A stretch of 64,000 nucleotides of DNA from Patiria pectinifera (lineage: Eukaryota > Echinodermata > Asteroidea > Valvatida > Asterinidae): the NCBI GenBank assembly GCA_029964075.1, contig CM057134.1:18640905-18704904 (forward strand), in the 5' to 3' direction. A model generated the notes under the pieces. The model was not told where the DNA came from. It saw only the letters and a list, made by a program, of their open reading frames with translations, and did no database searches. Below are positions 4,701 to 64,000 of the stretch, in pieces. The position numbers were made by a program, and so were the translations under genes. How positions within the stretch are numbered: position 1 is the first letter of the stretch; each line of letters starts with the position of its first letter.

Positions 4701-7700
4701 CAAAAAAAAATATGCGCACATGTTATTGTTGTTATTATTTATTTGACTTCAACAAACAAATACAGACATTAAAACAAAGTTAATTTAAAAAAATATATAT
4801 ATAATTTTTTTTAATTATCTTTTGGCCTACAGTGCATTATTATTCACAACAAGAAGGGTATGCACATGTATGTGTACATGTATACCATGTACCTGTACTC
4901 GATGTTGGTAAAGCTTTTGATAAAACGAGCAGTTGAAAGCGGGTTGATTACTAATTGGGATTTTGAAAAGTTGGCAGCTATGCCTCAATCTGTAAGTCCT
5001 GTTTTACCTTTCTCCATTTCTTTGTGCTGTCAAACATCTTTAAAACCTATTTCATCCCGTTTTATTATATGTTGATGTTCATTCACTGTAACACAACTGC
5101 AGGATTTTTAAATGCCATTTTCTCAAGAATCAGTTTTACAACTTCAAGTAAGTTGGTGGTCTATATTTCTGTTACTGAACTCAGTACCCCTTAATGTTGT
5201 ATACCATTGGAAAGCTCTTGTTCTGCAGAATCCAGATATATGAATATCTCAATTCTTAAAAAGTCTGACTTTAAGCTCATTTTGTGATGACAGGTAACAT
5301 TTGGCCAAGCTGTAATAAATACAAAAAATGATCAATGCTGTTTTTCTAAAATCCGGTTCTTGAGGTCATTTTTGTCCCTTCAGTATCATGTTCTTGTGCT
5401 CGGACAAAAGTAATAATTTAGACAATGGACCACTTACTGAGATGTGCACTGTTGAAAGCACCTTGTACTACTGAAGATTTAGCTAGACAACACCATCACA
5501 GAACAGCTTTGCGCTCAACATTGGTCAAGTACAATTTGAGCACACGATAGATAGATAGATAGATAGACATGGCATTATAGCTACACCTGGCAGCAACACA
5601 CTAGTCTATGAGAAGTGGATTCAGCCGCTTTCATAGGTGCATGTGTGAATGCCAGCTGTAGCCACGTAATTCAAATGCAGCCTAAAAAAAAATGTAGTTA
5701 TAATACAAAAAAGTGCCTGACCACTTCCATTTTTGTTCAGACAAATACGGTAAAAGGTTGCAATGTCGGATGTCAGAAAAGAAAATTCACGCTCTGTGGA
5801 CCCGAGGCTTCATCTATAGAATATCCCCTTGCACAGCAAGGGTCTATGATATGCGAGCAAAATCGGCGATAAATTATGCAAAACAACTGCATCTTGACCT
5901 CCAGATTCTGACCATTCAGCAGGCGTATTGTTGTATTACAAATAAATGGTAGCCAAATTGACCAATCAACAGCTTAGTCCACATTTGTGATCAAAATGAC
6001 GTCACAATTTCTAAAGTCAACTCTGAAACGCTGGCGCGCGGGGTCGCATAAAATGTGCATAGCTCATATCAGACGTTGGTTACGGAGAGGGCTCTATTGG
6101 ACAACGGGTGATACTCAGACTACCCGAATCCTTGCCACCTACCATTTTTGGAGGCCATGTATCGGTTGTCTGGACTGAACGACAGCTGGCTGATTCCAAC
6201 CTTGGGATTGGCTTTGTCTGGGTCTGGCTTGACCACCGGGATCTGAATGGATCCCTCCGTAAGAACTTCATCTGTACAACAGATCAGAACAATGACGGTA
6301 CATTTTAAAAAACGTAAATCTGAGTCCAATTGCTGACAAAAAGCCTTAATCAAGTACTTGAAAGAACACAAATTTCTTTTAATCCCAAAACTCTCAAGAA
6401 GATTATGAACTCAATAGAATTGTTGCAGTGATAGAAGACAAAATGTACAAGTGTGGATTTTGATTCCCCCATCCTCTGTTAGGGTTAAATCACCATTATT
6501 CTGTAAAGCGCAAGGGGTGTATGTATATGTCTTCACAAATTGATCGTGCACCTGGCAGGCAACTTGCCTGCGAAGGTGCCCTCCCTGCAAAGCGGATGAG
6601 GCAAAGCCTTGTCGTGTAAGCGGTGAAAGTGGTTTGAAACAAGAAATGGCAAAAGGCAACTTACATTTACTCTGGACGCTGAACATGCTGGCATCTGGCC
6701 TCCAGTTGGTCTGGTTACTGACTCCCCGGCCGCCTTCTCTGACTAACTGTGGTCTCTTCTCGACCTCTTTGTAAAGTACCTGAGAATAAAGTAATTAGGG
6801 TAGAATGCGAAATTAAACTGGGGGCAACACTACGTTTAACTCGAGGTTTTACTGGGTACCTCGGTTGTTGAACCTCTAGTTACCGCTTCGTAAATAATTC
6901 ATTCTTCCCTTACAAATGCCATATTCAATAACATGTGAACAAATACAGTACCCGGAAATGATGTATTTAATGATTTGTATTTACAAAGCACATTGGTGCT
7001 CAAGGTGCTACATCCTTATTACCCTGCTCATTTGGGCCTTTGAAACATTCCAAATACCATTTCAGCTCCCTGCTGGGGAGTATACAGCTCCATGCTGCCA
7101 TTTCAGCACAAAGCAGCTAAAATCAACCACAATAACCATCTCTGCCCTTACAGGTACCCATTTACTCCTGGGTGGAGAGAAGCAATGAGTGACAAAGTGC
7201 CTTGCCCAAGGACACGCACACCATAACCTCAGGCTGGACTTGAACCCACAACCTGCAGAATTACCCACAGACCATAAATTCAATGCTCCAGACCACAAGG
7301 CCATGGCACTCCACATCTAAACTTCCCAGATAATCCCAAATCTGTCAGGTTTTGAAGGGTTTTGCAGTGCTCAGGTAGGAAAACGCCTAGCCACAATTAT
7401 TAAACATGGACCTCTATGCCCCTTGAAAGAAATAAGAAGAGGAAGAATGTGCCGTAAGGTTTGTGCACAGTGGTGGACTCTGGAGGGTTAAATGGCCAGA
7501 TGGTAGAGCAGAAATGTGATAGCCTAATAAACTCAGTTTTGGTCAATTTTATTTCCTTCTACTTACAACTGAGCCACTGTCTAGGTTAGATGGATGAGCA
7601 TGCTCCACTACCGTCTTCCACGTCACATGGTTCAATACTCGAACCTGTTAAGAAAGAACGCGCACTAATTAAAAAGAGTAACAGACTAATCTTTGAAAAA

Positions 7701-10700
7701 TTACTGCCAAACTTACGTACGAGCTGACAAATCTGGCAGATTGTTTTCAGGAGTAACTTTACCGCCTATTGAAAAAGAGGGTCTCCTAGCTTCACTTAAA
7801 TAATACTTGTGCCTTGAAATGGAAAAATACATTACGGTGTACAACAGGAAGTAAGACAACACTATCCAGTGGTCATATGCTTGTCTACAAAGATTAAGCT
7901 GTGCATGTCTTAAGTAAAAGCTTTCACAGGCGAAACTGCAGATGGCTCATTAACCCTCCCTCTCTGGCTGGCAATTTCAACAAGGCCAGCCCAGCAGTCA
8001 AAATAAATCAAGTGACTGTTTTTAACAGTTGAGTGCTCCCTGCCTTCATAAAGCAGGATTGAATGGCTGTGATTGCTATGCTTTGACTGTAGGAAATTGA
8101 TAAGCCAGCTGTGCCTACCAGTCACCTGCTTTTGTCTGTTGATGGAATTTGACTGTCACAGTGCCTACAAGAAACATGATCTGACTGTTGGTGACTAGTC
8201 TGTGTAAAAGGCATGGAAGGGGAACAGGATTGAATTTTTCACTGTCTGTGACTGATCAAACAAAAGGAGGTTTAAATCAGTTATGGTTTCTCGGAGAGCA
8301 TCCTCCTAATGGATAACTGTGGTAATTCTAGAGCTAAAACACGCCGGCCAACATTGCAGGAGGCGTGCTTTTATAACAAACAAGGCCAACCCAGGCGCAT
8401 CCCGGCTCCCTTGGGGAGCTCTGGATAACTTGGCCAATCACACGGTCCTAGCACCGGCGATGAACCCTTCTCCTCACAGTGGCCTAAAGTCTGTCAAGCG
8501 TTTGAGGAATCTTTGCTTTCATTAAACAGAAATAAACAACACTATTAATACTTTTGAGACTTGGCTCTCACCTTTTGATCAAAACTTCCGATGGCAAGGA
8601 ACTGGCTTGTCGGGGACCAGGCGATGGATTTTATACCCAAGGCATAGTCATATGCCTTGAAGGTGGCCAGGCAGCGGCCGTCTACGGAGTAAAGCAGCAC
8701 CTTGTACTGTCGAGAAAAATCAAACTTCCCTTGAGAAAACATGTCGATTAAAATGATGTTTTATTTGGAAGGCTTCTGCGTGCTTTTGTAAATATGTGGT
8801 ACCGCATTTGAGGAATAAAGAAAGGATGATTATCTACACTTTAAAATGTACCTCCTCAAGGAAATAAGGACACTATCATTATTGTTCTCGATTGGCAAAG
8901 TTTCTTTTTCAAAGACACAATATCTGAAATCTCTTGGCTGAATTACAGCCACTAGGGCCATTTCATAAATTTAGGGCTCAAAGTGTGACCTTTTTTCTGT
9001 CCCTGTTACTACCATTCAAGTATCATTAAGAATGACTTCAACCAATTTTTTATTTGTTTGGTAGGGAGTTTGCTATCATAACCACATTGAGAGGACGACT
9101 ACGTTAAGGAGTACATCCAGAATTATAAAATATTAGATGGACAGGAAAAAAAGTGGACCCCAAAATTTTAGAATGACCCACTAACATGAGAAACTCTGCC
9201 ACTGCAACCGAATCCGACAACACAACCACTGGATTGCAAATGTAAGTGCATCACTGTTCCTAACTGTCAGACATATCTGATATAGTGTACCTGCAGTAGT
9301 AAGGGAGGGGCATTTCTTACCTCAAGCAGGGAGTCCCAGACACAGAGCACTCTGCCGTCGGGGGACCACTCCAGGCCAGCCATGTCTCTGGTGTCCGTCT
9401 CAAAATGCTGAAAATAACAGGTAAGGTTCATCAACTTGGACTGAACAGTGCCACCTAGAGTTTGATGATGTCCACTCATTCACATCCCCTTCACAACATC
9501 TTGATTCTGGAACGGCTAGCAGCCCCTCCATCTTGATAAGAAGTTGCTGCCTAGACTTACTATTTCTCTATGGAACCTAACGTCAAACACCACTGAAGAT
9601 GTCAGCAGAGGCCAACAGCAGATTGTGGGTTCGAGTCCCACCTGAGTGTACTTGTGATGTTTTGCTTACTAACTCAACAAAAACACTGATTAAGCACGTT
9701 AAGCACTTTGACATTAACCCAAACTGCCCTGAATCCTTCAAAATCCTCTTAGCCAAAGTGGAGGAATTTGGAGGATTGAGATGACATTGCAAAAGTGCGT
9801 TACTGATTTTGTTGGATGCACTTTGTCAAGGTCTTGGGCCGGAACTTTGTTTTTGCTCAGCCATGCATTAATATAGGACTGGATTATGCTTGAAATCCTC
9901 CGTACTGTTCCAGGATGTCACTGGCCAACACGGACCATATTCAAGAAACAATGGAGGAATTTGCAGGACTGAGGCTTTAAGCTATTTTTCCACGAGGCCA
10001 ATTGGAGGATTCTGCAGGATTGAGGCTACATCCTAGCAAAAAGGCCTAGGGAGTGGCAAAAAAGCACTATTAAACAGGTTTCAGAACTAGAAATTTTTGA
10101 CATACGGAAGAGGCTCACCTTTACTAACTGCCAAGTGTTGCAGGCAAAAACGCTGATGAAATCCTTGCAGTCTCGTCTCTCTGCCAGCGCTAGGTATTTG
10201 CCATCACGACTAAAATGCAAGGCTTTATGGGAAAATCAACAACACACGCCTGGTCAATAATGCCAAGATTGCTTGTAAATGTGGTCGCAGCACTATTTAA
10301 AACAAAAATGTGTGGCAATTTAAATCATGCTTAATGCAACAACTTTGGTCTAAAAAAGCTAGGATGCCAGGAGTGCGGTATCAATCAAAAATAATGAAAC
10401 AAAATGCAAGAGGCGAGTGATTATGTTGCATTGTGCAGTGAACAAGGTTGCCCTGTTGAATGCAACCAAATGTAACAGTGGATTCTGATGCATCAGCCTT
10501 GGCACTATGAGCAGTTACCCTGCGAAATGCAACAAAATCCAACACAGCTGAAATAAGAACCATGCCAATTGCAACAAAATGCAATATTGAATTATGTTGA
10601 ATAAGCTTTGACACTATGAGCAGATACCCTGCTTAATGCAACAAAATCAAACACAGCTGAAATATGAGCCATGCTAATTGCAACAAAATGCAATAGTGGA

Positions 10701-13700
10701 TTCTTTTGTATTAGCCTTGGCATAATGAGCAGTGACCATGCTAAATGCAACAAAATCCAACACTGCTGAAATAACAACCATGCTAATTACAACAAGATGC
10801 AATAGTGGATTCTGTTGTATCAGACTTGGCACTATGTGCAGTTACCCTACTAAATGCAACAAAATCAAACACAGCTGAAATATGAGCCATGCTAATTGCA
10901 ACAAAATGCAATGGTGGATTCTGTTATATCAACCTTGGCACTACTTGTATTCACAGTTACCCTGATAAATGCAATGTGATGCAAGTAGCATGCATCACAT
11001 TGAACGCAACGGTATGCAACGCTAAATGCAACAGTATGCAGCAAATTTTAACCTCTGTTGTTTTATGTTGCTTTTGGCATGGTTAGGATTAATGGGACTT
11101 GATGCCAGTGTTAAATTGGTTTCCTACAAAGTGGTGGGTTTGGAGGAATAACGAAAGTTCCTGAGCAAAAATGACTTCAGGGTTAAACTTTGGTGACAAT
11201 TAATTCCTCAACACTTACGCTGTTTAGCTTCTTTCGGGTACTTGATGTAGGACACCGATTTGGTCACCAGCGACCAGACAGTAATCCTGAGGTGGAATTC
11301 AGCAGTAGTTAGTATGTGCCTTCCATCCGGGCTCCAGCGTACGGCGATGAGGCCGGCCGACCCCTCGTCAATCTTGCAGGTCCACTCCGGCTGTTCCAAC
11401 GACCAGACCTGCACGATGCCTCGCTTGAACATGCCGCACAGGATGAAAGCAGAGTCTGATGACCACTGCAACGATAGTCATATTAGTGAATTAAACCGAC
11501 CATAAATTACCATATGCAAGTCGTACTTACAATCATAATGTGGTGCTTATATAGCGCCTCATAACAAAGGTCTGAAAGCGCTTCACAATTATTACCCCTG
11601 TTCATTGGGCCACGAGACCAGTTTTTGCAGCAGCTCGAGATCGGCGCATTCTGGTCTCTACCTTCACATGTATACCCATTTATACTCCTGGGTGGACAGA
11701 GGCGATTGTAGTAAAGGATCTTGTCCAAGAACACAAGCACCATGTTCCCCGTCGGGGTTCGAACCCATTTAATACGCAAGTCGAACACCGTAACCATTGG
11801 ACAACAGCGCTCCACTTTTAAATTATTGAGTTCAGCAGTGTGCCGTTCAACTTTTCTTGTGTCCATTCCTGTTTTCTTATTCAAAGCTACATTCTGTAAC
11901 TGACGCAAAGTTAATGGCCACTGATGCTTGTTGACACAACTGACCTATCGCCGTTTGCGAGTTAGCCGCGCCCCTCAGACAATCCTATGGAGTTTTTGTA
12001 CACTAATTTTTGTTTGTCTCAGCTTTAGCGTGTTCCACATCCATTTGTATATCATGTTATTGAACAATATTTCACAAGCTGCGTTGACGCGATTCTAACG
12101 AGGTCAATTAGTAATGACCATTTGCTGGGCATCTACACGTACCTCAATGTGCTGGACAGCATCCAGACAGGTGTACAGCTGTAGGATCTGAAGAGACTGG
12201 ACATCTCGTACGATCAGCCTGTACTGCAAGGTGTTCGCCTGTAACAACGGAAAAGAAGCTCCTTGAGGATATTTCAAACAAATTGCATTACAGCAAGATA
12301 AAATTTGTCAAAATAGGCCTAATTAAGATTTACTGAAGAATCGTTTCTTTTCGGGCATGAAAATTTTATCTTTAACCCTACTATGCAAATATACATTCTG
12401 TGTCAACTTGTCATTGCAGTCAAAATCAATCAAGTGACTGCTTACAACCCATAAGAATTCTCAGCCCACATAAAGCAGGATTGACTGGCCTTAATGGACT
12501 GCTAAGTAACTTGATACAGTTATGCTTTGACTCCCGGAAAGTGATATAACAGCTGTGACCACAACCTGCCTGCTTTGTCCGTTGAAACGTGTACGCATAA
12601 TTATGATCGAGAGATGATTTTCGGTTCGCTCGGAGCGCGCCGCGGGGGGTACGGTACAAGCGAAATGATAGTATGTGCATGCGTACAGGTTGGCTCAGTG
12701 CGGAAAGGGCATATTTTTCATCGTTTTGGCCTAAAAACCGACAGAATCCACCTATGTTAGTTCCGCGCATGATACGTGAGTATGTCAAGAGATAAAGTAC
12801 GGAGTATAGGGGCAAACTGTGCAGCGGTTCTGTGTGAAATGTCTGCATTTTGATGGACGTTTTTGCACTTTATTAGTGTTTTGTGCTGCAGACAATTTTG
12901 CGGGCTTCTACATCTATGAGGCTCCGCTCACGCGGAGCCTCATAGTTCTAGGAGTAGACAGCGCGGTGACAACATGCAACCCGAAAATAAAGATGGTGAA
13001 ACACCGCGCAATGAACCATGAGCACGCATGGCACACGGAATCACAAGGCACAAACCACGCAGGAAAATCGTGATTTCTACCAAAAAAAACTATTCAAAAT
13101 TGCAAAATGGGTGACATTAGAATTGAGAAAAGTCTGCTTTTGATTGTAAAGGTGATTTTTGAGCAATAAAAATCATTTTTGACCCTAATTCAATCAAAAC
13201 TAAACAGGGGCCCTACACTTTACGATCGTCATAGTTCTAGGGGTATAAATTGGCCACCTTTATTTATGGGGTAGTCCGAGTAACGTGGACATTCGGACAT
13301 GGTCTGGCGTAGCCCCATAAATGTGGCCAAGTTACTGGACTACCTCCGTAAACATAGGCCACACATCCACCATGTACAAAAACATGTCGAACTAAATTTT
13401 CAAATTTTGATTTTCACATTAAGGCTTAATTTGTAGTTTTTTTGCTTAAGAAGCATACTCACCCTCTTTATAGGCTAATCAGAAAGTGCTGCCTTTTCCG
13501 GATGTCTAATTTTCATGAAATTTCATGTTGAAATTTTAATACACAAACGTGTGCAAACGAATCTGGAAATTTCACGAAAAATTGTCTTGAGACTTGACTC
13601 TCCATTAGGTGAAGTGGCAATGTGGGGCGAAGGGGCGAAGGGGTGAAATGGCAATGCGGGGCGGGGCGTAAGTTTCAGTGCAGGGTGCCATTGCCACTGC

Positions 13701-14305: not shown

Positions 14306-15287
14306 ATGTCTGTCATTACGTCAACTATATCGGTTCTGACTAGATCATTACATTTAGGTTCGATTGTACGACATTTATCTCAAGGTAAGCAGACGATCCG
14401 ACAAATGTGTCGCGTGTTAGTCCGAGTAACTTGGACCCAACTTATCGCCTTTTTAACATTTGGACATGGTCTGGCTTACTATCGCCAGACCATGTCGAAA
14501 TGTTAAAAAAGGCGATAAGTTGGGTCCAAGTTACTCGGACTAGTCGCGTGTGAAGTTCGCTTGTCAAATGAGGGCGCTATTTTATAATAATGGGATAGGA
14601 TTGAGACAAAACTTGCAACTTTTGCAAGGATTTAGAGTATTAAAAGTGTATGAAAACACAGGGCTCCCTTCTCCAATTCATACTCTGCCCCCTTTCATAA
14701 CATTGAAAAATAAAATTTTATGAAAATTCAGCATTGTCTTTTGAATGTCATTGTCGGATTTCAATTTAAATTTGTTGTTCTCAAAGATATGTGCCGGTAT
14801 GGAATTTCATCATTGTTTTATAACATGGATTGGAGTTACTGAAGGCATGCTACAATTGCTAGGGATTACAATACATGTTTCTTTATTTTGCTTTTTAGGA
14901 GCATTTGCCTGCAGCAACAAGCCATGCCCACCAACCGAGTCCCTGATCCAGTGGAACAAACTCTCCGTCCCCAACAAACCCAAGAAGGATCGCTGGGACC
15001 AGAAGCACGCCCTCTTTGGCGAGAACGACTACAAGGACATCCTCGGGGACGGATCCTACCTGCTGAAGAACAACATCAAGCACGGCCCGCTGTGGCTCAG
15101 GGGCTGGAAAGGCAACGAGTTGCAGCGGCTGATCCGGAAAAATAAAGTGATGGGGGAGGACATGGGGCCCACGGAGCGATACGCCATGCTCAAGCGCATC
15201 AAGTACCTGCACAAGCGCATGAACAGAAACCATGGACGGTGGAAGTACATTGACAAAAATGTGCCAAACTACAGAGACGGCATGTGA
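14306..15287 (+). CDS. MRPL51: Mitochondrial ribosomal protein bL51m/mL51 (MRPL51), 2 exons
   Basis: Exon 1 is 14306-14384 (CAAG, then the donor GTAAGC), exon 2 is 14899-15287 (acceptor CTTTTTAG). The phases join to 155 aa ending NYRDGM. The N terminus MSVITSTISVLTRSLHLG, with Arg, Ser and Thr and no acid residues, fits a mitochondrial targeting peptide. Family landmarks follow in exon 2: DRWDQKHALFGENDY, ILGD, HGPLWLRGWKGNELQRLIRK, and KRIKYLHKRMNRNHG. Human MRPL51 (128 aa) has the same RGPIWLRGWKGNELQR core. The protein belongs to the large subunit of the mitochondrial ribosome. The C-terminal extension after RNHGRW is longer than in human. It is head-to-head with WRAP73. Its only intron contains a perfect foldback element with a 9-bp target duplication. 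Confidence 0.93.
14418..14542. mobile_element. 125-bp foldback element with 9-bp TSD in the MRPL51 intron
   Basis: The left arm (14418-14475) begins TAGTCCGAGTAACTTGG. An 8-nt loop TTACTATC follows. The right arm (14484-14542) ends CCAAGTTACTCGGACTA. The arms are inverse copies with one substitution and one extra base. Direct repeats GTCGCGTGT flank it exactly at 14409-14417 and 14543-14551. A 9-bp target duplication with long inverted arms is MULE/Foldback-like (inference). The arms also occur singly at 37620-37680 and, inverted, at 41560-41623. Confidence 0.88.
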
Positions 15288-19582: not shown

Positions 19583-22500
19583 TCAACTGGGATTTACATG
19601 GTGAGCTGTTGAAGAAAATGAAGAAAAAAAAACAAATAAAAATTAGGAAAAACATCAACTGCACAGACGTTTTTCTCTTAAACTAATTTTCTAATAGTAA
19701 TAGAGGATAAAAATAAGTTTTAATCCAAAAAAAAAAAGTCTCCGGTTTCTGGTTTGCGCGCGCGTGGCCGTAGCCATGCACGTCGGCAAACTGAAAAAGT
19801 TTTTTTTTCAATGAAAGATGATGTCTCAAAACCGCCAAACTCACTGGTTTGACTGGAATCCTGCTGCTGCACAATTTTAACGTGTTTTTGGATTGGGTTA
19901 TGGTCTAGAATAAGCTTTATGTGGCCTCTCTGGACTCCCATATATTTGCACTATTTAGTCGGGCACCATTTGCAGTCATCAGCCGACATTTGAAGCAAAA
20001 AAATCAGTTAAAAATAAAAAAAAAAGCCGCGTCGCCGCACCACTTTTTGGGCAAGCTCCATACCAGAAACCGGAGACTTTTTTCTTTGGGCCTACGGGAA
20101 GTTACATATTCTGAGGACCTTGTTTTAAAAACGTTTAATATTCGATATGTAAAGATTTGTGTCCCAAACAGTGCCCCTAGCATCAAGTTACATGTATGTC
20201 TAACTCCCCTATCCCCATAAATTTGAATTTTCCACAGCCAGAAAACTTTCAAGACATTCTCAAGTATTTCCTCTCAATTGAGAAATGTCCAGCTACATTA
20301 CTGGCTAAATCTAGCGAGAAAAAGGACCAACTTACATCTTTTGGGTATTCGCAGAGGTTCGTTGTCTGCTATCGTGCATTCGTGTTGTTCACCGTGAAAC
20401 TCGTATTGGACACGGAGATTTTTCTCTTCGCCCACACACGGGTCGTAAAACCCTGGCAGGGCAGCCTGTGGACAGACAAAACAAATTAAGGTTCACCGTT
20501 ATTACACTGCCTGGCCGGTAAAAAGACACACACATGTTCATGCTCGTCGCAAATTTCATGCACTAGCCTAGTCGACCAATCCCAGCTCGCTATCACTGTA
20601 TATTCATGAAGGCATTGTACGTAGCAACTGCCCCATGACAGACTGGGGAGTCAGGTTGGCATAGCGGTACTTTCCTCGCCTACCACCGCTGTGACCCGGG
20701 TTCGAATCCTGCCTGGGCCAATACGTGGATTGGGTTTTCAGTCCCTACCTGATTCCTTGGCTTTTCCCTAGAATATTCCTCTGGGGTTATCCTCCCACCT
20801 CTAAAACTGTAATTTCTTCTCATTGTTTTCTCTCTACAGGTTTCTTCGGGCTTGCAGGCTACAGTGCCTGGGGCACTTTTGAGGAATCCTTGGTTTCATT
20901 ACCAGAAATAAATAATAATAATAATAATAATCATCATCATCTGAACAATAGCTAGCACAATGCTTTCACCAGTGAAAAGGGCTCCGCGAGTGTAATGGCA
21001 TTTTTAGAATGGTTTACGTAAAATAAAATCTGTTATAAGTCAAATGGCCATCAGGCCAGCGTTTATCTCCGGTTTCCTTGGCATAAAGCGACTGAGAATA
21101 TTTCTACTCCCCTGGATGGGATGCCAGTCCATTGCAGGTTACTCCCCAGCTAATGCTGGTACCCATTTATACTCCTGGGTGGAGAGAGGCAATGGGGGTA
21201 GAGTGGCTTGCCCAAGGACACAACATATGACCAGCAGCTGGATTCAAACCCCTGACCCTCTGGTCACGAGTCACAAACCCTAACCACTGGGCCATCCCCC
21301 TAGAACAGTCTACAGTGCATCAGCGCATGGCCCTGAACATCCCGTGGCAGGATCACATGAGGAATGTAGACCTCTATGCTGGCTTGCCGAATGTGATGAA
21401 AAAGATCCGAGAACGCCACCTCAAGCTGTGCAGGGCATTGCGTCCGTCACCTGGAGCTGGCCGCTAGCCCGATCATTCTCTGGGAGCCCACATGGGGCAC
21501 TGCCTCACGTGAGAGAAGAAATCTCTCCTTCGTGGACATGCTGAAACGGGACACCGGCTTGACCACCGCTGAGGAGCTGTGCTCATGCATGCTGGACCGG
21601 GACATCTGGACCAAGATCATTGGGCAGGCTCGAGCTGCCAAAGGGCCTCGACTTGATTGATTGATAGTGCATTACATTTGCGTCTACGTTTATAAATCAA
21701 GAATCGGTGCAAACCTTGGAGGCATCCGTTAGCATCAGCTTGGAGTCCTTGACTTGGCACTGTAGCTGTACCGTCACGTCAATCATGCCCTCGATTTCCC
21801 CGCCGACTTCCCCGTCTCCGTTCTCCTCCTCGGCATCCCGGATGACCAGCTTGCCGTACCACGCCCTGGTGATGATTAGCCCCTCCCGGTTACGTTCCGT
21901 CTCGATGATGCGCTGCACCATTTCTTGCATGAGATGCACCTGTAGAACACAAGAGATAGTTTCTAACCCCATGCACGGACATACACACTTAGCATTTGGG
22001 GTTTATGGGGTACCACTATTGTTCGACCTTAATTCCCTTCTTTTGTTCTTCTTTGTTCCCTTAGAAATCTCAAAACCATAGCGTTATGACTATGTACTTC
22101 AATTTCTAAAGACCATACTTGCGGGGTACCATTGTCCCTATTGTTGTCCTTTGTTCCCAGTACCCCATAAGTGCCAATATGTATAAAAGCAGTACGCCTG
22201 GCACAAAAAGAAACTAAGCAGTTTTTTATAATCATCCTTGTTTGGACATTTTCTCGGTGAACAAAAAAATCCAAAATATACATTTTGTCACAGAAACTTT
22301 CCAGTCTAATTTGATACCTCACTTAAGAACACTGTGTTAGAAATAATGAGAGCGCAAGCGCTGAAACTCCTGAAAAGTTGCCCTCAGCGAGATTTTCAAT
22401 CGGCATTGCAACACACAATTCAATGCGGGGCCTGCATCATTGCATTCAATTGTGTGTTGCAATGCCCATGGAAAATCTTGCTAAGTGCACCTTTTAGTTT

Positions 22501-25500: not shown

Positions 25501-28500
25501 TCGGGAAAAACAACGTTCTAGGATTTCGATTTCAAATCAAAAGTTGCTGAATCATGTTTTGAATTGGGCCTAAATTCAGCGTCCGAGACATGTTCTCACT
25601 GAGCCGATTGCAGCTACCCGATATCGCGCACTGATCCGACGAATGATAGCAACCACGCGCGTGTGCATCGTGTCAACGCCAAGTGCGCGCTTCGCCGAAT
25701 AAAAAAAGAGAACTACTAACGGAAATTTCCAACGGTGCTTCTTCAGACGCAACGTTGGAAAGGCCTTCTTTTGTTGATTTCTTCAAAATGACAGCTAGCC
25801 AGAAAGAATAATTTCACAGGGAGTTTAGTCCCCTTACTATCTTTCAACCAAGTATGTTTTTCAACAATAATTACGCCAGTTACTTTTTGGATAGCTGCAT
25901 ATGATGGACTCTGGCTTTATGCAACGTATCCACCATCATTAGTGCTCAAGGCGCTACATCATTATTACCCTGCTCATTGGGACAATGAAACATTTCAAAG
26001 ACAATCTCAGCTCCCTGGGGAATATACAGCTCGATGCTGCCATTTCGGCGCAAAGCAGCTAAAATCAACCACAATAACCATCTCTGCCCTTACAGGTACC
26101 CAATTTACTCCTGGGTGGGGAGAAGCAATGAGTGGCAAAGTGCCTTGCCCAAGGGCACACGCACCATTGGGCCAATGAAACATTCCAAAGACAATCTCAG
26201 CTCCCTGGGGAGTAGACAGCTCCATGTCACCATTTCGGTGCTACTAACGAACCACAATAACCATCTCTGCCCTCACAGGTACCCATTTACTCCTGGGTGG
26301 GGAGAAGCAATGAGTGACAAAGTGCCTTGACAAAGTGCCTTGCCAAAGGGCGCTCGCACCATTGGGCCAATGAAACATTCCAAAGACAATCTCAGCTCCC
26401 TGGGGAGTATACAGCTCCATGTCAGCATTTCGGTGCTACTAATGAACCACAATAACCATCTCTGCCCTCACAGGTACCCATTTACTCCTGGCTGGAGAGA
26501 AGCAATGAGTGACAAAGTGCCTTGCCCAAGGGCGCACACACCACAACCCCAGGCTGGACTCGAACCCACAACCTGCAAAATGTTAAAATTTTGAATCTGT
26601 AGACGGAAGTTAGGTTGCTCAGTCACTACGCAACCTCTTTTCGCACATTGCAACCTTGTACCCACCTTAGCCTCAGAGTGACCCCAGCAGGGATTCCTAT
26701 GCTGATTTTGGCAGCCGCCCTGCTGTGCCTTGATATTTTCTTGTCGCAGCCGTACTCGAATACTGACCCGAGTAGGCCCACCCTAGAGTATAGAAAGAAA
26801 GGAAAAAAAGAACAAACAAATCATTCTCTTGTTACATTCTCACTGAGAGTCAAGAAATTATTTTCAATATGAAAAAAATACCAAATAAACAACAAAAAGT
26901 AAACTGACAAGGAGCCAATTTCAAAATATTGAAAATTGAGAAACTTGATGTGATCAGCAAAAATTAGTCAGTAACCAGTCAACACCAATGCACATCATGT
27001 GGCCATTTTTGGTTGGTAACCTGTTATTGGTCTTTTCTGCGTTTCAAAGCGCTTTGAAATTGTTGTGTTTAATAATTAGCAGAAAAGTTGAGCGAAACTA
27101 CTGCCAAAATCTTGTGCAAAATTTAACCCTAACCACCCCAACCCTTCAAAATCCATCAGCATGTTTTGTTGGAATCTGTTGGAGTGAGTACTGCACTAGT
27201 AAACTGATTATGCTTTACATGGGATTAAGCATACCACCATAATCAGAGCCCAACAGTTTGGGTGTTGAGTTTACCATATGGTGTTGGATTTTGCAAGAGC
27301 GAGGAAAGTGAAGAGGTAAAGTCTGTCACAAGCCAATATGGCCCATCAGGCTGGCATTTATCTCCGGTTTCAGTCGCATGAAACGACTGAGAATATTTCT
27401 ATTCCCCCTGGATGGGATGCTAGTCCATCGCAGGTTACCCCCCAGCTAATGCTGGTACCTATTTATACTCCTGGGTGGAGAGAGGCAAATGGGAGTGAAG
27501 TGGCTTGCCCAAGGACACAACACATGGCCAGCAGCTGGATTCGAACCCCTGACCCTCTAATCGTGAGTCGAGAACCCTAACCACTAGACCACACTCCCCC
27601 TTAGCGCGATGATGGTTCCTAGTGAATCACTCAAGATTAGGTTAAAGATGCGTGCCCCATGCTCTTTTAAAAAAGGCATTTTTTCTTCTCTTATCAATTT
27701 TTCAATTTGTATAATTTGTTTTAACAAACAAAAACTACTTTTTCCACCAACTTTGGGCGTCGGCCACCCTCTGAAAAGGGGTTTTCATTTTTTTGCACAA
27801 AATCGAACCCACCCTGCGAGAGTTGCAATGATTCAAATTTTGTTAAAGAAATGTGTCAACAACTAATCTTTGATGGATTTTTTTGTTTTTTGTTCAATGT
27901 CTCTTTCAAAATGTGAAACACTTTTATATTGCTACAAAAATAGCAATTGAAAAAAAAAAAATTCATTCTACATTTTGGGTCAAACCGGAACAGGCATGAC
28001 GAGTGCCTCTTTAAGAATTTTTCAGAGTGTTGAAATGCTAATGCTTGTACATGCAAAAGTGCGTTACTGATTTCGTAGGATGCACTTTGTCAAGGTCTTG
28101 GGCCGGACCTTGTGTTGTTTTTGCTCAGCCATGTATAAATATAGGCCTGGATTATACTTCAAATCCTCCGTAGTGCTCCAGGATGTCACTGGCTAAGCCT
28201 CAACATACTGCCAGTCACTGCCGCAGGATTTTGCAGGATTCAGGCAGTGGTCACCCCTCCACGGACCGTATTCAAGAAATAATGGAGGAATTTGCAGGAT
28301 TAAGGCCATATGCTATTTTTCCATGAGGCCAGTTGGAGGATTTTGCAGGATAGAGGCTACATCCTAGCAAAAAGGCCTAGTGAGTTAGGGTTAAAGAGAG
28401 GCGTAATCGTGACTTACTTGGCAGCTAGTGTGATTTTGCCGTCGTGCTCTGGAAACTTCTTGGTGAAGCTTACGCTAACAAACGAATTTGGAATTCCAAG

Positions 28501-48711: not shown

Positions 48712-51700
48712 CTGGAGGAAAAGAGGAACACAGACATTACGTTGAATCATTTAAACAGGGAAATTCGCCTGAAACAGATATTCCAGTCTTTGTGCCAACT
48801 AACGTACATTTAGAATGAGATTCAATAAACGCACCTAGTTATTCAAAATGTTCCAGTTTCATTTTTGGCTCGGTGATGTAGTGTAGGATATTTAAAGTTA
48901 TGACGTAAAAAGGTCGCCATGTAATAATTGAGCCATATTTGGCGTTGGCATGGCAACGAGATCACGCTTTCAGCTAAGATACTATGGGAGTCAGGTTGGC
49001 GTGGTGGTACTTGCACTGACCTGGTTCTGTCATGTGTGATTTGCAAGTAACTCCGGCGTCCTCACTGTGCTTACAATCATTACTAAACCATCTGCTGTGT
49101 GAACAGTCATCAATGCTTGATTCGAAGCCATAGCAGTGGACATCGTCAAGGATGATCCATCCTGATCCTTGGCCAAAGTGAGCATTGCTCCAAGCATTGG
49201 ATGCAGAAGGCAAGCCAAGCATGCGACAGACGACATTTGCATCATCAAGGTCCCATCCATCATCACAGACTGTGCCCCACTCGCCTTGGAAGTAGACCTC
49301 TACTCGACCCTCGTAGGAGGAGCTGCCACCAACAAGTCGAACTGAACCTAAAAGCAACAGGAAAATACATTGTGGTAATTTGTCTTTTCTTTTGTCTCTT
49401 GGACAATATGTTTAAGCTGCTAACATCACAGATTCAAATAGTTTACCTTCAGGCACGGGAGTAGTAGAGACATAACGACAGATGACGCCTGCATCTTCGC
49501 CATGACTGCAATCTTCTTGTCCCCACAGCGCATGATCACATTCTGACAGAGTCGACTCAGATCCGGTACAACGAACATCATCCAGGAGGATGCTACCCGA
49601 TCCCTGCCCAAAATAAGCACCACTCTTTGCCCCAACAGCATAAGCATAGCCAAGCTGATGACAAACGACTGTAGCATCGTTGATGTCCCACGCATCATCA
49701 CAGACGGTACCCCACTGTCCACTGTGGTAGACTTCAACTCGACCTTCCCAAGCTGCAGAGCCACCAACTAGACGGACCGGCGCAGCTGAAACAGTCAACA
49801 GGATACTATATTTCAGTACCTATTGTAGCACTACAATTTATCAATCAACTTTCAAATCTACTAAGATAATAGATCATCAATAACCAATAGAAGGACTCAG
49901 CCACCGACTCAGTAGCACAGGACAGATTAACCTGATTAATAGTGTTAGACTTGACCGCTATTCCAGGAGCTACAACTTGCGGTTTGGGGGGGATTACTGA
50001 ACTTCCCAATGAACGAGCTGACTACCCCTAGTGTCAGCATAAACACAAGCAACAAAATATCACAGACGGTTTATACTTGCCACCGTAAAGTTAATTACAA
50101 CCCTCATTCATAATAGGTGAATTTTAATCGAAAAGGAAGTTCAAATTAGGTATTTATCTGATTTTTTGAACTAACTGACTACCAACCTGGGATTGGAGTT
50201 GTTCTGATGGTTTCGTCACAAGTTACTCCAGCATCTTCACTATGCTGACAGTCATTACTAAACCAACTTCTATGTGAACAGTCAGAAATGCTTGATTCAT
50301 AGCCTTCGCAGTTCACAGCGTCAAGCATGATCCGTCCTGATCCTTGGCCGAAGTGAGCATTGCTCCAAGCATGGGACGCAGAAGGGAAACCAAGCATGCG
50401 ACAGACGACATTAGCGTCATCAAGGTCCCATCCATCGTCGCAGACTGTACCCCACTCGCCTTGGTAGTAAACCTCCACTCGACCCTCATTGGAGGAGCTG
50501 CCACCAACAAGACGAACTGAAACTGAAAGAATGCAATATGGAATAAAATTAAGGTAAGAAATGTTGTCAATAGTATGACAAAAACCAAGCAATATTGATG
50601 ACGTCTGAAAGCCCAACATCTATTAATTCTTAATTCCTATGAAATTTAAATCACTGTCATTTGAGCCACTAACCTAGTGGGCTTGGAGTTGTCATGATAC
50701 TTTCACCACAAGTTACTCCAGCATCTTCACTATGCCCACAGTCATTACTAAACCAACTTCTGTGTGGACAGTCCGCGATGCTTGATTCATAGCCTACGCA
50801 GTTCACATCGTCAAGGATAATCTGTCCCGATCCTTGGCCGAAGTGAGCATTGCTCCAAGCATGGGATGCAAGAGGGAAACCAAGCATGCTGCAGACGACA
50901 TTTGCATCTTGTAGGTCCCATCCATCATCGCAGACTGTGCCCCACTCGCCTTGATAGTAGACCTCTACTCGACCCTCATTGGAGGAGCTGCCACCAGCAA
51001 GGCGAACTGAAACTGAAAAGATGCAATGTGGAAGAGAATAAAGGTAACAAATGTTGTAAAAATACTACTGTTGATGACGTTTGAAAGCCCAACATCTAGC
51101 GAGTCGTAATTTCGTAGGAAATTTAAATCACTAGTCATTTGAACAGCTTACCTGGGCTAGGAGTTGTCATGATACTTTCACCACAAGTTACTCCAGCATC
51201 TTCATTATGCCCACAGTTATGACTAAACCAGTCACGATGCTGGCATTCAACTAGGCTAGATTCATGTCCATGGCAGTTAACATCGTCCAACATGATCCGT
51301 CCTAACCCTGGACCGAAGTGAGCATTGCTCCATGCATGGGATGCTGAAGGCAAGCCAAGCATGTGACAGACAACACTTGCATCGTCAAGGTCCCATCCAT
51401 CATCGCAGACTGTACACCACTCGCCTTGGTAGAAGACCTCTACTCGACCCTCCTTGGAGGAACTGCCACCAACAAGACGAACTGAAAGTGAATGAAGAGA
51501 CAATGAGGAATATATAGTTGAGCTAATTGGAAAGAACTACAAATGAGAAATTATCTTCTTCTTTTAACCTAACAAACCACACTCTAAAAACTGAAGTGTT
51601 GAATTTTAACATTTTCGAAGTGTTACTACCAAAACAAAATTTCAAATGTTGCAAAAGGTTATTCCAACTCTTAGTAATGCTAAAGTTAACCAACTTCAAG

Positions 51701-54700
51701 ATTTGACTTTTCACATTTTAAAAGTGTTGTGAGCTTTCCTGCATAGACGCATGCGCAGTAATGTATTAGGCGACCGAGCATTTTGATTGGATAGTGAGTT
51801 CAGCGCGCGCGCACTAGATTTTTTTTCCGTCCGAGCTCCAATATGGCGTTGCGTTCTTCATAACTTTTGTCCTACATCGACCAACATCGCCGACCATCAT
51901 GATATAACCATTTGAGTAAAGGTGAGATTTTTTATACTGAGATATCAGCGTAGGAACACTGCACATTTTGATGTTAATACTACTTCTATACCGTACGAAA
52001 TTGACAGATAATTTTAAACCTTAGTTCTAACAGATGGGTGTCGCTATACATTGTACGTGTACGTGCATAACGTGCATTTGATTTGCGTGATGTATCGATG
52101 GTGTAAGCACGTATCTTACAATCGACAGAAGTATGACCAATCTTTAATCTTTACAATCTCAGTTTAATATGTGTACATGTATTTCCATATGAGGACCATG
52201 TATCGATACATCAGGCAAATCCAATCCACGTATGAACGTACGAACATGTATAGCGACACTCATCTGTACTTATATGGTCTAAAATTATCTGTCAATTTCG
52301 TACGATATAAAAGCAGAATTTACATAAAGATGTGCAGTGTTCCTACGATAATATCTCAGTATAAACAAATCTCACATTTACTCAAATGGTTATATCGGGA
52401 TACTTACTAATTGTTAAATCATAATTATGACATATCTTATATACGATTAAGTCGTAATTACGACTTAGGATATCTCAAAATTATGACTTAATACTAAGTC
52501 ATAATTATGAGATATAGGCCTAAGTCATAATTATGACTTAATAATAAGTCATAATGATGAGATATGTCATAATTATGATTTAACAATTACTAAGTCGTAA
52601 TTAGGAGATATAAGTCATAATTATGACTTTATTTTGTTATTGTTTTGTTTTTTGTATTATGTCCCTTTAATGCTTCCGTACAAAGTAACACATTTAAAGG
52701 GTAACAAATAGCTGTCATAGATGGCAATGGGTAAAGAGGTAACTGAATAGTAGTTGTAACATTTTATAAGGGTAAGATCCAACACTTTCCTACACTTTCC
52801 TAACATTTTCAAAATGCTGGATCCCAACACTTTTTTAACGCTTGGAAAAGTGTTGCAAAAGGGATCGACACTTTTGTAACTTTCTAAAAGTGTTGGAATT
52901 CGTAACACTTTGGAAAGTGTTGAATCAACCTTTAAAGTGTGGTCACTGATCGCACACTGAGCAAGTGTTAAAGTTATCATTTATAAAGTTGAATTGAACA
53001 CTTTAGTTTTTAGAGAGTACCAACCTGGTAAAGGAGTAGTTGTCATGTTACCACAAGTTACTCCAGCATCATGCCTATGCCAGCAGTCACGACTAATCCA
53101 ACTTCTGTGTGGACATTGATCAATGTTAGATTCGGTTCCTAAGCAGTTCACATCGTCAAGGACGATCCGTCCTGATCCTCGGCCAAAGTGAGCATTGCTC
53201 CAAGCATTGGACGCAGAAGGGTAACCAAGCATGCGACAGACGACATAAGCATCATCAAGGCCCCAACCATGATCGCAGACTGTACCCCACTCGCCTTGAT
53301 AGTAGACCTCTACTCGACCCTCGTATGAGGAGTTGCCACCAGCAAGGCGAACTAAAACTGCAATATGGAATAGAATTCATGTACGAAACATTGTCAATCT
53401 AGTACTACAAGAAACAAGCAATGTTGATGATGCTTGAAAGCCCAACATTTTAAATCACTTTCAACTGATCCACTAACCTAAGTTTGAAGCACAAGTGACT
53501 CCAGCATCTTCATTATGCCCACATTTATGACTAAACCAACTTCTGTGTGGACAGTCCGCGATGCTTGATTCATAGCCTCCGCAGTTGACATCTTCAAGGA
53601 TAATCCGTCCTGATCCTTGGCCGAAGTGAGCATTGCTCCAAGCATTGGATGCAGAAGGGAAGCCAAGCATGCGACATACGACCTCAGCATCTCGTAGGTC
53701 CCATCCATCATCGCAGACTGTACCCCATTCGCCTTGGTAGAAGACCTCTACTCGGCCTTCGTAGCTGCCACCAACAAGGCGAACTAAAAGTGAACGTATA
53801 GTTTCTACGTCAATATTAAACAAGGCTACGCCGCGGTCTCGGAAAAGTGTTGCAAAAGGGATCGACACTTTTGTAACTTTCTAAAAGTGTTGGAATTCGT
53901 AACACTTTGGAAAGTGTTGAATCAACTTTTAAAGTGTGGTCACTGATCGGACACTGAGCAAGTGTTAAAGTTATCATTTATAAAGTTGAATTGAACACTT
54001 TTTTTTATAGAGTTCTTAGAGTGCACCAACCTTGTAAGGGAGTAGTTGTCATGTTACCACAAGTTACTCCAGCATCATGCCTATGCCAGTAGTTACGACT
54101 AATCCAACTTCTGTGTGGACATTGATCAATGTTAGATTCGGTTCCTAGCAGTTCACATCGTCAAGGACGATCCGTCCTGATCCTCGGCCAAAGTGAGCAT
54201 TGCTCCAAGCATTGGACGCAGAAGGGAAGCCAAGCATGCGACATACGACCTCAGCATCTCGTAGGTCCCATCCATCATCGCAGACTGTACCCCACTCGCC
54301 TTGGTAGTGGACCTCAACTCGGCCTTCGTTGGAGGAGCTGCCACCAACAAGGCGAACTAAAAGTGAACGTATAGTTTCTACGTCAATATTAAACGAGGCT
54401 TCGCCGCGGTCTCGCCAGTTCGCCGCCCCCCCCCCCCGCTTCGCGGTCGCGTCCAACATGAACTCGTGAACACACCCACACAAGAGTGTACTCACCTGCA
54501 ATCGTGGACTCCTCATTGTTCCTCTTTTGTTTGTGCTTTATCTTTTTAGGAAGACATGTTTGTTTCGTACACGATCGCCCTCCATTATTTAACGTCCCCT
54601 ACTGAATGCAAAAATAAACTCATACGCATACATTCTTGTGACATCCTAATGACGTCACATATTTTTTTTGAAAATTGTGTGCTTATGATCATGACCTACC

Positions 54701-62560: not shown

Positions 62561-63950
62561 TGCCGGGGTAGAATGGTGGACTATCAGCCGCTGAGGCATA
62601 TGCAGGAGGGGACAGGTCGGCGTTGGTGGTGTTTGATACCGGAGCAACCCCTGGTGTACGGTTGTTCTTGGGAAACCCGGTACCAGGTAACTGGACCATT
62701 AATTGGGGCTGGCCACTGAAGGGCATTGGGTAGTACCCTGGAGGTGGTTGACGAGGTACGGGCTGGGAAAAAGGGGTCCCTCTATGAAGAGGGCTAGATA
62801 GGCTATTGGCTCCGTTAGAATTCGGGTCAGAGGCTGGTGGGTCAGAGGCTGGTGGTTCAGCGGCCGATGCCAAGGGTATGTTCATGTTGCTGGATGTCGG
62901 TGAAGACTTCTTGCGCCTGCTTCTGACTGCAACTATGATGACAATGGCGATGATTCCGATCACTACAGAGGAGATAGAAATACCTACGACTTCACCAGTG
63001 GCGAGGCCTGGGGGAAAGAGGAACACATATATTACGTTGGACGTTAAAAGAGCTAGCCAAATTCGTCTCTCACAAACGTCCGGCATTGTACAAGTCGTTG
63101 ATGTGCATTTAATTAGATTCAATAGCAACTCTACACAAGTTCCCGTTTCACTTTTAGAATAGGTTGCCATGGAATAGTTGCGTCATATAATGGCGCACAC
63201 TGGCATGACAACATGATATAGCATTGAGTTCAGATATTCAGAGGGTTCTATACAGTTTTATACAACAAAACAGTCTTTACAATCTACCCAATGATCCTTG
63301 GAAAAGTGTGTAGCTTTCAAATTAACGTAACAATACAGATGACAAAGGATTCCACGTCTTAAGCATTCTTATTCTTATTCTCACCCAATAACACCCTACT
63401 AGATCATCAATTAACTAATTATGGAGATACACACTAGCACAGCACAGATAAACCTGACCAACAGCATTAACAACCGACAACACAAACAAACATCACAGAC
63501 GTTATACTAACAATCGTAAAGCACCTAACCCCAACCCCTTTTCATAATAGGTGATCTTTAATCGAAAAATGAAGTAAAAATGAAGTAAACATTTCTTTTG
63601 ATTAACAGACCACCAACCTGGGTTTGGAGTTCTCATGGATTCTCCGCAAGTTACTCCAGCATCTTCGTTATGCCCACAATCTGTACTAAACCAGCTTCTG
63701 TGTGAACAGTGAGCGATGCTTGATTCATATCCTTGGCAGTTGACATCGTCAAGGACGATCTGTCCTGAGCCTTGGCCAAAGTGAGCATTGCTCCAAGCAT
63801 GGGATGCAGAAGGCAAGCTAAGCATGCGGCAGACGACCTCAGCATCTTGTAGGTCCCATCCATCATCGCAGACTGTGCCCCACTCGCCTCGGTAGAAGAC
63901 CTCGACTCGACCCTCATTGGAAGAGCTGCCACCAACAAGACGAACTGAAA
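62478..63950 (-). CDS. SRCR receptor gene B, 3' part (SRCR exon, TM and tail); continues beyond the window
   Basis: Exons visible: 63618-63950 (SRCR, 111 codons, phase 1-1) and 62478-63007 (TM and tail, stop TAG 62478-62480). [70 protein letters not shown], six cysteines. TM exon: GLATGEVVGISISSVVIGII then RSRRKK; tail with PPGY, PPAY and PPFY, a tandem ASDPPASDP repeat, and a PQ-rich end. It is a close paralog of gene A, but lacks exons equivalent to a and b, has three rather than four PPxY motifs, and SPLH where A has NPLY. The 5' part lies to the right of the window. Confidence 0.86.
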
Positions 63951-64000
63951 CTAAAGCAACAGGAAAATTAGTGTGGTACTTTGACCTTCGCCTTTTCAAC

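Follow-up and report, generated by a model that had tools for sequence, protein, structure and literature searches.

The element at 7856..8545 of the window (by which we mean the whole 64,000-nucleotide stretch of Patiria pectinifera DNA that was analysed) consists of a fragment of the 5' part of 18S rRNA followed by a 35-nt SINE-type tail, the two lying together inside one 10-bp direct repeat. It is very probably a single, old chimeric retropseudogene made by a LINE template switch, and not a new SINE family. As such it illustrates well what appears to be the fusion of rRNA to a SINE tail by LINE machinery, a route by which new SINE heads are thought to arise. Its junction lies beside a predicted hairpin, and this position hints at the point where the reverse transcriptase released its template. 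Since there is a single copy, no classification is changed, and the element has no known function and shows no evidence of further spread. Its parts, and the SINE used as reference, are as follows.

7856..7865, + strand: left target-site duplication ACAACACTAT, an exact 10-bp repeat of 8536-8545, directly 5' of 18S nt 17
7866..7953, + strand: first part of the 18S rRNA-derived head (18S nt 17-102), matching Rfam RF01960 (E 1.6e-10) and host 18S
7954..8275, + strand: high-copy repeat inserted later, 322 nt including one flanking TTAA, splitting the 18S part and known from genome copies
8276..8477, + strand: second part of the 18S rRNA-derived head (nt 103 to about 310), matching Rfam (E 1.7e-6) to 8477 and host 18S to 8428
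8478..8500, + strand: junction of 23 nt, decayed 18S or extra bases, without significant match
8501..8535, + strand: tail common to the 3' end of a tRNA-type SINE, TTTGAGGAATCTTTGCTTTCATTAAACAGAAATAA, 87% identical to 20878-20915, with 1761 copies of its core 15-mer
8536..8545, + strand: right target-site duplication ACAACACTAT, an exact copy of 7856-7865
20646..20925, + strand: reference tRNA-type SINE with the same tail, its tRNA-like start judged by eye

What identifies the head as 18S rRNA? Two matches to the Rfam SSU_rRNA_eukarya model (RF01960) cover it, 7859-7960 against model positions 1-111 (41.3 bits, E 1.6e-10) and 8280-8477 against positions 109-307 (31.1 bits, E 1.7e-6), with model order kept and on one strand. 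Both scores fall under the gathering score of 50, as expected of a fragment, and the default scan of the window reported neither. When the insert is removed and the element is compared with host rDNA (L011), 213 of 248 columns are identical from 18S nt 17 onwards (pairwise E 1e-68), and the 18S head that the original prediction had read from conserved phrases is thereby confirmed. A gap-free comparison finds 25 of 239 bases different from host 18S, by 17 transitions and 8 transversions. The host reference is one readable 18S start met by the searches and its sequence runs to nt 262, so that for 8429-8477 the Rfam model is the sole support. Continuation of 18S into 8478-8500 was not detected with an approximate query of conserved 18S sequence, whose score was equalled or exceeded by 641 of 2000 shuffled versions. 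At its other end the head begins 16 nt inside 18S, and no external spacer is seen at its start.

The two parts of the head are separated by 322 nt beyond 18S, lying between the TTAA at 7950-7953 and the TTAA at 8272-8275; with these 322 nt taken out, the sequence reads CTCATTAAATCAG, the same as host 18S. A first, tentative guess at the class of the insert would be a piggyBac-like MITE. It represents a repeat with 3305 first-look candidates in the host genome, 40 of which were scored to give 42 matches, the window copy included. Among seven other copies (L002-L008), two start with TTAACCCTCC and six end with GGAGGGTT, and TTAA on both sides was found in none of the seven. The insert is a later event, unrelated to the 18S-tail hybrid. 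The ends of the repeat read CCCTCC/GGAGGGTT, and window positions 12416-12585 are similar to the insert.

The tail belongs in common to another mobile family, a tRNA-type SINE. It had been matched by eye to the end of the SINE at 20875-20915, and alignment bears this out: 8501-8539 and 20878-20915 are 87% identical (E 7e-8), the first T of TTTGAGG in the element falling at 8501. ARAGORN reported no tRNA for the SINE at 20646-20925. The 15-base core of the tail, TTTGAGGAATCYTTG, has 1761 exact matches in the genome against 1 for its reversed control, and the 24-base form nearest to the element has 30, including the element, against 0 in the control; the tail pattern has no matches in IMG/VR viral contigs. 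We read 73 tail loci, comprising 30 of the 1761 core matches, all 30 of the 24-base matches (the element among them) and 13 of 17 matches in an unusual base context. The other four of these 17 were L019, L072 and the element, already in the sample, and C853, which was left out. The census is not a random sample: the 30 core loci head the list of 1761 and come from a single contig, and L014 and L016, both among the 30, are identical upstream of the tail. For 69 of the 72 tail loci other than the element, SINE sequence is matched strictly upstream of TTTGAGG; for the remaining three (L038, L040 and L079), the match extends to SINE position 196-204 only in a joint alignment with the tail. No foreign head was identified in any of the 72; the element alone has one.

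Target-site duplications are not a clear feature of this SINE family. In a sample of 37 full-length copies from 59 loci (L012-L041 and L051-L080, without the element), 35 fall short of a score of 9, a level to which 8% of mismatched flank pairs attain. The two exceptions are L015, whose repeat is AT-rich, and L041, which may carry a genuine duplication. Exact matches of at least 8 bases occur in 1 of the 37 copies, compared with 2 of 37 in the control. The 10-bp repeat of the element is consequently not the usual mark of the family, a point against the preferred reading. In one copy, L036 (G000:C1:12975774 region), the 5' part of the SINE is, by eye, seemingly inverted directly before a normal 3' part, as expected of twin priming.

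Is the element one of a family? The original prediction left this as a choice between a one-off chimeric pseudogene and the founder of a family, with further copies of the 18S-tail junction as the means of deciding. In the 613.5 Mb and 1020 contigs of the genome searched, the junction query returned one candidate, the element itself, and a query of 8267-8536 returned two, the element and rDNA. Host 18S nt 1-262 as query gave four candidates: rDNA, the element, and a pair of short 18S bits that lack the tail. Searching with one of this pair led to the same four places. The junction 21-mer, allowing up to 3 mismatches, occurs in the element and at four other loci, compared with three occurrences in the reversed control; the four loci have no match to host 18S and share merely 19-26 nt around the word. 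These searches were sensitive enough to pick up matches of 42 nt at 93% and of 157 nt at 84%, and a family of similar age should therefore have appeared; copies more than about 15% diverged, in stretches that read N, or in other species could escape. At this sensitivity the element is the only 18S-tail copy found when copies with differing flanks are sought. By the test that the original prediction had set, absence of a second copy makes it a chimeric retropseudogene, and the founder half of that choice finds no support.

An 18S-headed SINE family, of which the element would be the founder or the one surviving old copy derived from a mobile master, is on this evidence very unlikely. The element does possess a SINE tail of the sort that a LINE would be expected to recognise and a defined head-tail build, and a perfect repeat around a diverged head fits a head that had diverged before it was inserted. 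Indeed, given the roughly 10% decay indicated by the 25 of 239 head differences, the reckoned chance of the 10-bp repeat remaining perfect is about 11%, and this counts against a single old retropseudogene. Set against a family are the lack of a second junction copy in the 613.5-Mb assembly and the nature of the head, 18S being a product of pol I in which a pol III promoter is not expected. In a broader form of the idea, an 18S-headed SINE was short-lived or has died out and the element is what remains of it, or else the element gave rise to such a SINE that multiplied in a related species; this too is a long shot, if a little less so. If it were true, this LINE machinery would use the hairpin as a recurrent switch point for putting new heads on the 35-nt tail, and such head swapping would be a route for new SINEs.

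The two short 18S bits without a tail deserve mention in their own right. One, L045:1501-1566 (G000:C1:8690384-8690449), covers about nt 40-102 of 18S and the other, L046:1490-1542 (G000:C2, around 8717706-8717747), nt 44/61-102. Both stop exactly at nt 102 (CTCATTAA), their flanks are mutually dissimilar, and the two have the appearance of tailless retropseudogenes for which priming took place at ATTAA. TTTCACA is found in L045, L046 and the element, compared with TTTTACA in the sole readable host 18S.

The boundaries of the element point to a single insertion. As originally described, a perfect 10-bp repeat surrounds the whole: copies of ACAACACTAT adjoin the 18S start (7856-7865) and the tail end (8536-8545), in register with both. 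When 25-mers of the window were paired at random, 4 of 3000 draws had 10 or more bases in common at any position. The 18S head and SINE tail have the same orientation, both +, with 23 nt (8478-8500) between them. One could instead envisage two events, in which an 18S fragment landed within or next to a SINE remnant that was already there, and tail-only remnants starting at about SINE position 196-204 are indeed present in the genome (e.g., L076 and L079). This was the case named beforehand as the one that would overturn the prediction, and it finds little in the sequence to sustain it. One repeat encloses the entire composite, no SINE sequence was detected 5' of the head (7400-7865 gives no match with an E of 1 or less), and the inner junction shares no word of at least 7 bases with the 18S start, one 6-mer being all that they have in common. 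Taken together, the outer repeat adjoining both ends, the lack of SINE sequence upstream and the lack of an inner repeat support a single insertion of the hybrid, and we regard two successive insertions as most improbable.

How might such a hybrid be formed? In the single retropseudogene reading, a LINE reverse transcriptase would begin by target-site priming, with the 3' tail of SINE (or LINE) RNA as template, copy about 35 nt of tail, and pause at the foot of a hairpin 5' of UUUGAGG. It would then switch to 18S rRNA, entering that molecule at about nt 310-330, and copy 18S back to nt 17, and the hybrid cDNA would be integrated with duplication of 10 bp. We infer the template jump itself. The earlier view that LINE template switching or tail capture was the likely origin is supported. 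In the SINE, a hairpin, AGUGCC-UAG-GGCGCU, is located directly 5' of UUUGAGG (predicted fold alone, -6.8 kcal/mol), and the tail of the element begins at the 3' foot of this predicted hairpin. The hairpin is conserved across SINE copies, with 262 of 282 hairpin cells paired. In the covariation set, which holds 47 of 59 rows after 12 were dropped as too unlike the 15-nt reference, there is no covariation beyond chance, 213 of 1000 shuffles matching the observed pairing. This lack of covariation, like the 23 nt before the tail that gave no significant match, counts against the template-switch reading. Among the first 30 tail loci, L019 and L029 have internal SINE deletions joined at the same TTTGAGG edge, which fits a switch there but is biased evidence since the search pattern itself began at TTTGAGG (ascertainment bias). 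L092, L097 and L103 are SINE copies without part or all of the hairpin before TTTGAGG, and the pattern by which they were picked favours such cases.

The same hybrid might have existed first as RNA, an 18S fragment and a SINE tail fragment having been ligated and only then reverse-transcribed, with no template jump. RNA ligation is considered alongside template switching for the 28S/LINE-1 chimeras (PMC13174262), and the two routes give an identical product; the switch point at the hairpin foot, however, favours a pause and jump, and prior ligation seems to us a very poor prospect. An origin at the DNA level, in which a piece moved out of the rDNA array came by accident to adjoin a SINE tail and the repeat is coincidental, is scarcely credible: two other short 18S bits do exist (L045 and L046), but the piece starts 16 nt inside 18S without external spacer at its start, and it has a retroposon tail at its end and a perfect 10-bp repeat adjoining.

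For the preferred template switch, the partner LINE would carry TTTGAGGAATCCTTGGTTTCATTACCAGAAATAA(TAA)n at its 3' end. A search of the genome for RVT_1 gave 150 scored places; 11 of those whose match length (about 720-770 bases) looked LINE-like were taken. The LINE with the same 3' tail that the original prediction expected did not turn up there, the tail being present in none of the 11 LINE-like 3' regions (2.5-2.7 kb on the 3' side of each), and this weighs against the template switch. A longer tail-bearing repeat at L038 and L040 was considered as a LINE end and rejected; it is a two-copy duplication on one contig, made of the tail and an unrelated repeat.

Elements of this general kind are known from other organisms. 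The closest in build are WEIRD-MgSINE and WEIRD-MGL of Magnaporthe (PMC2104539), in which cellular RNA is joined directly to the 3' end of a 5'-truncated SINE or LINE. WEIRD-MgSINE, a transcript fused to a 5'-truncated SINE, has 12-bp repeats, so that it shares with the element a single outer direct repeat (12 bp there, 10 bp here) and a hairpin near the switch point; in the Magnaporthe chimeras, hairpins are predicted directly upstream of switch sites (PMC2104539). Unlike the WEIRD elements, of which 33 are bipartite, the element has 18S rRNA as its 5' partner, only a 35-nt tail and one copy found. The 28S/LINE-1 chimeras, 18 loci in a comparative survey (PMC13174262), resemble it in that rRNA fragments of comparable size (median 269 nt there), mostly in sense orientation, are fused to the 3' part of a retroposon. 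They differ in having 28S rather than 18S and LINE-1 rather than a SINE tail, and in numbering 18 loci; the term 18S is absent from the main text of that report.

SINE heads are typically derived from tRNA, 7SL, 5S rRNA or snRNA, and MeloSINE carries 28S (PMC7245038). The element is similar to 5S-headed SINE3 and 28S-containing MeloSINE in combining an rRNA part with a LINE-type tail. Uniform structure among copies is the test of a SINE family (PMC7245038), and unlike SINE3 and MeloSINE, which are families of uniform chimeric structure, the element has no second copy among those found here. In human, two 5'-truncated 18S tailless retropseudogenes have been attributed to LINE machinery (PMC5322556). 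The element likewise has an 18S fragment attributed to LINE machinery; unlike the tailless 18S/28S retropseudogenes, which L045 and L046 resemble, it has a SINE tail at 8501-8535. Among the matches listed in the open-access literature, a scope with most subscription papers outside it, there was no 18S–SINE chimera. As far as these sources go, the element is a chimeric retropseudogene of the known LINE template-switch kind with an unusual partner, 18S.

The window has further features of note. An array of open frames similar to scavenger receptor cysteine-rich (SRCR) domains occupies 48974-54516 and 63502-63999 on the - strand, one frame matching Pfam with E 2e-34, and near the array are GC-rich 12-base repeats that can in part be read as proline-rich open frames. 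At 26133-26522 there is a tandem 195-bp unit, 95% identical and part of a wider repeat family. An open frame at 14745-15287 on the + strand encodes a mitochondrial ribosomal protein L51 domain (Pfam MRP-L51, E 5e-27).
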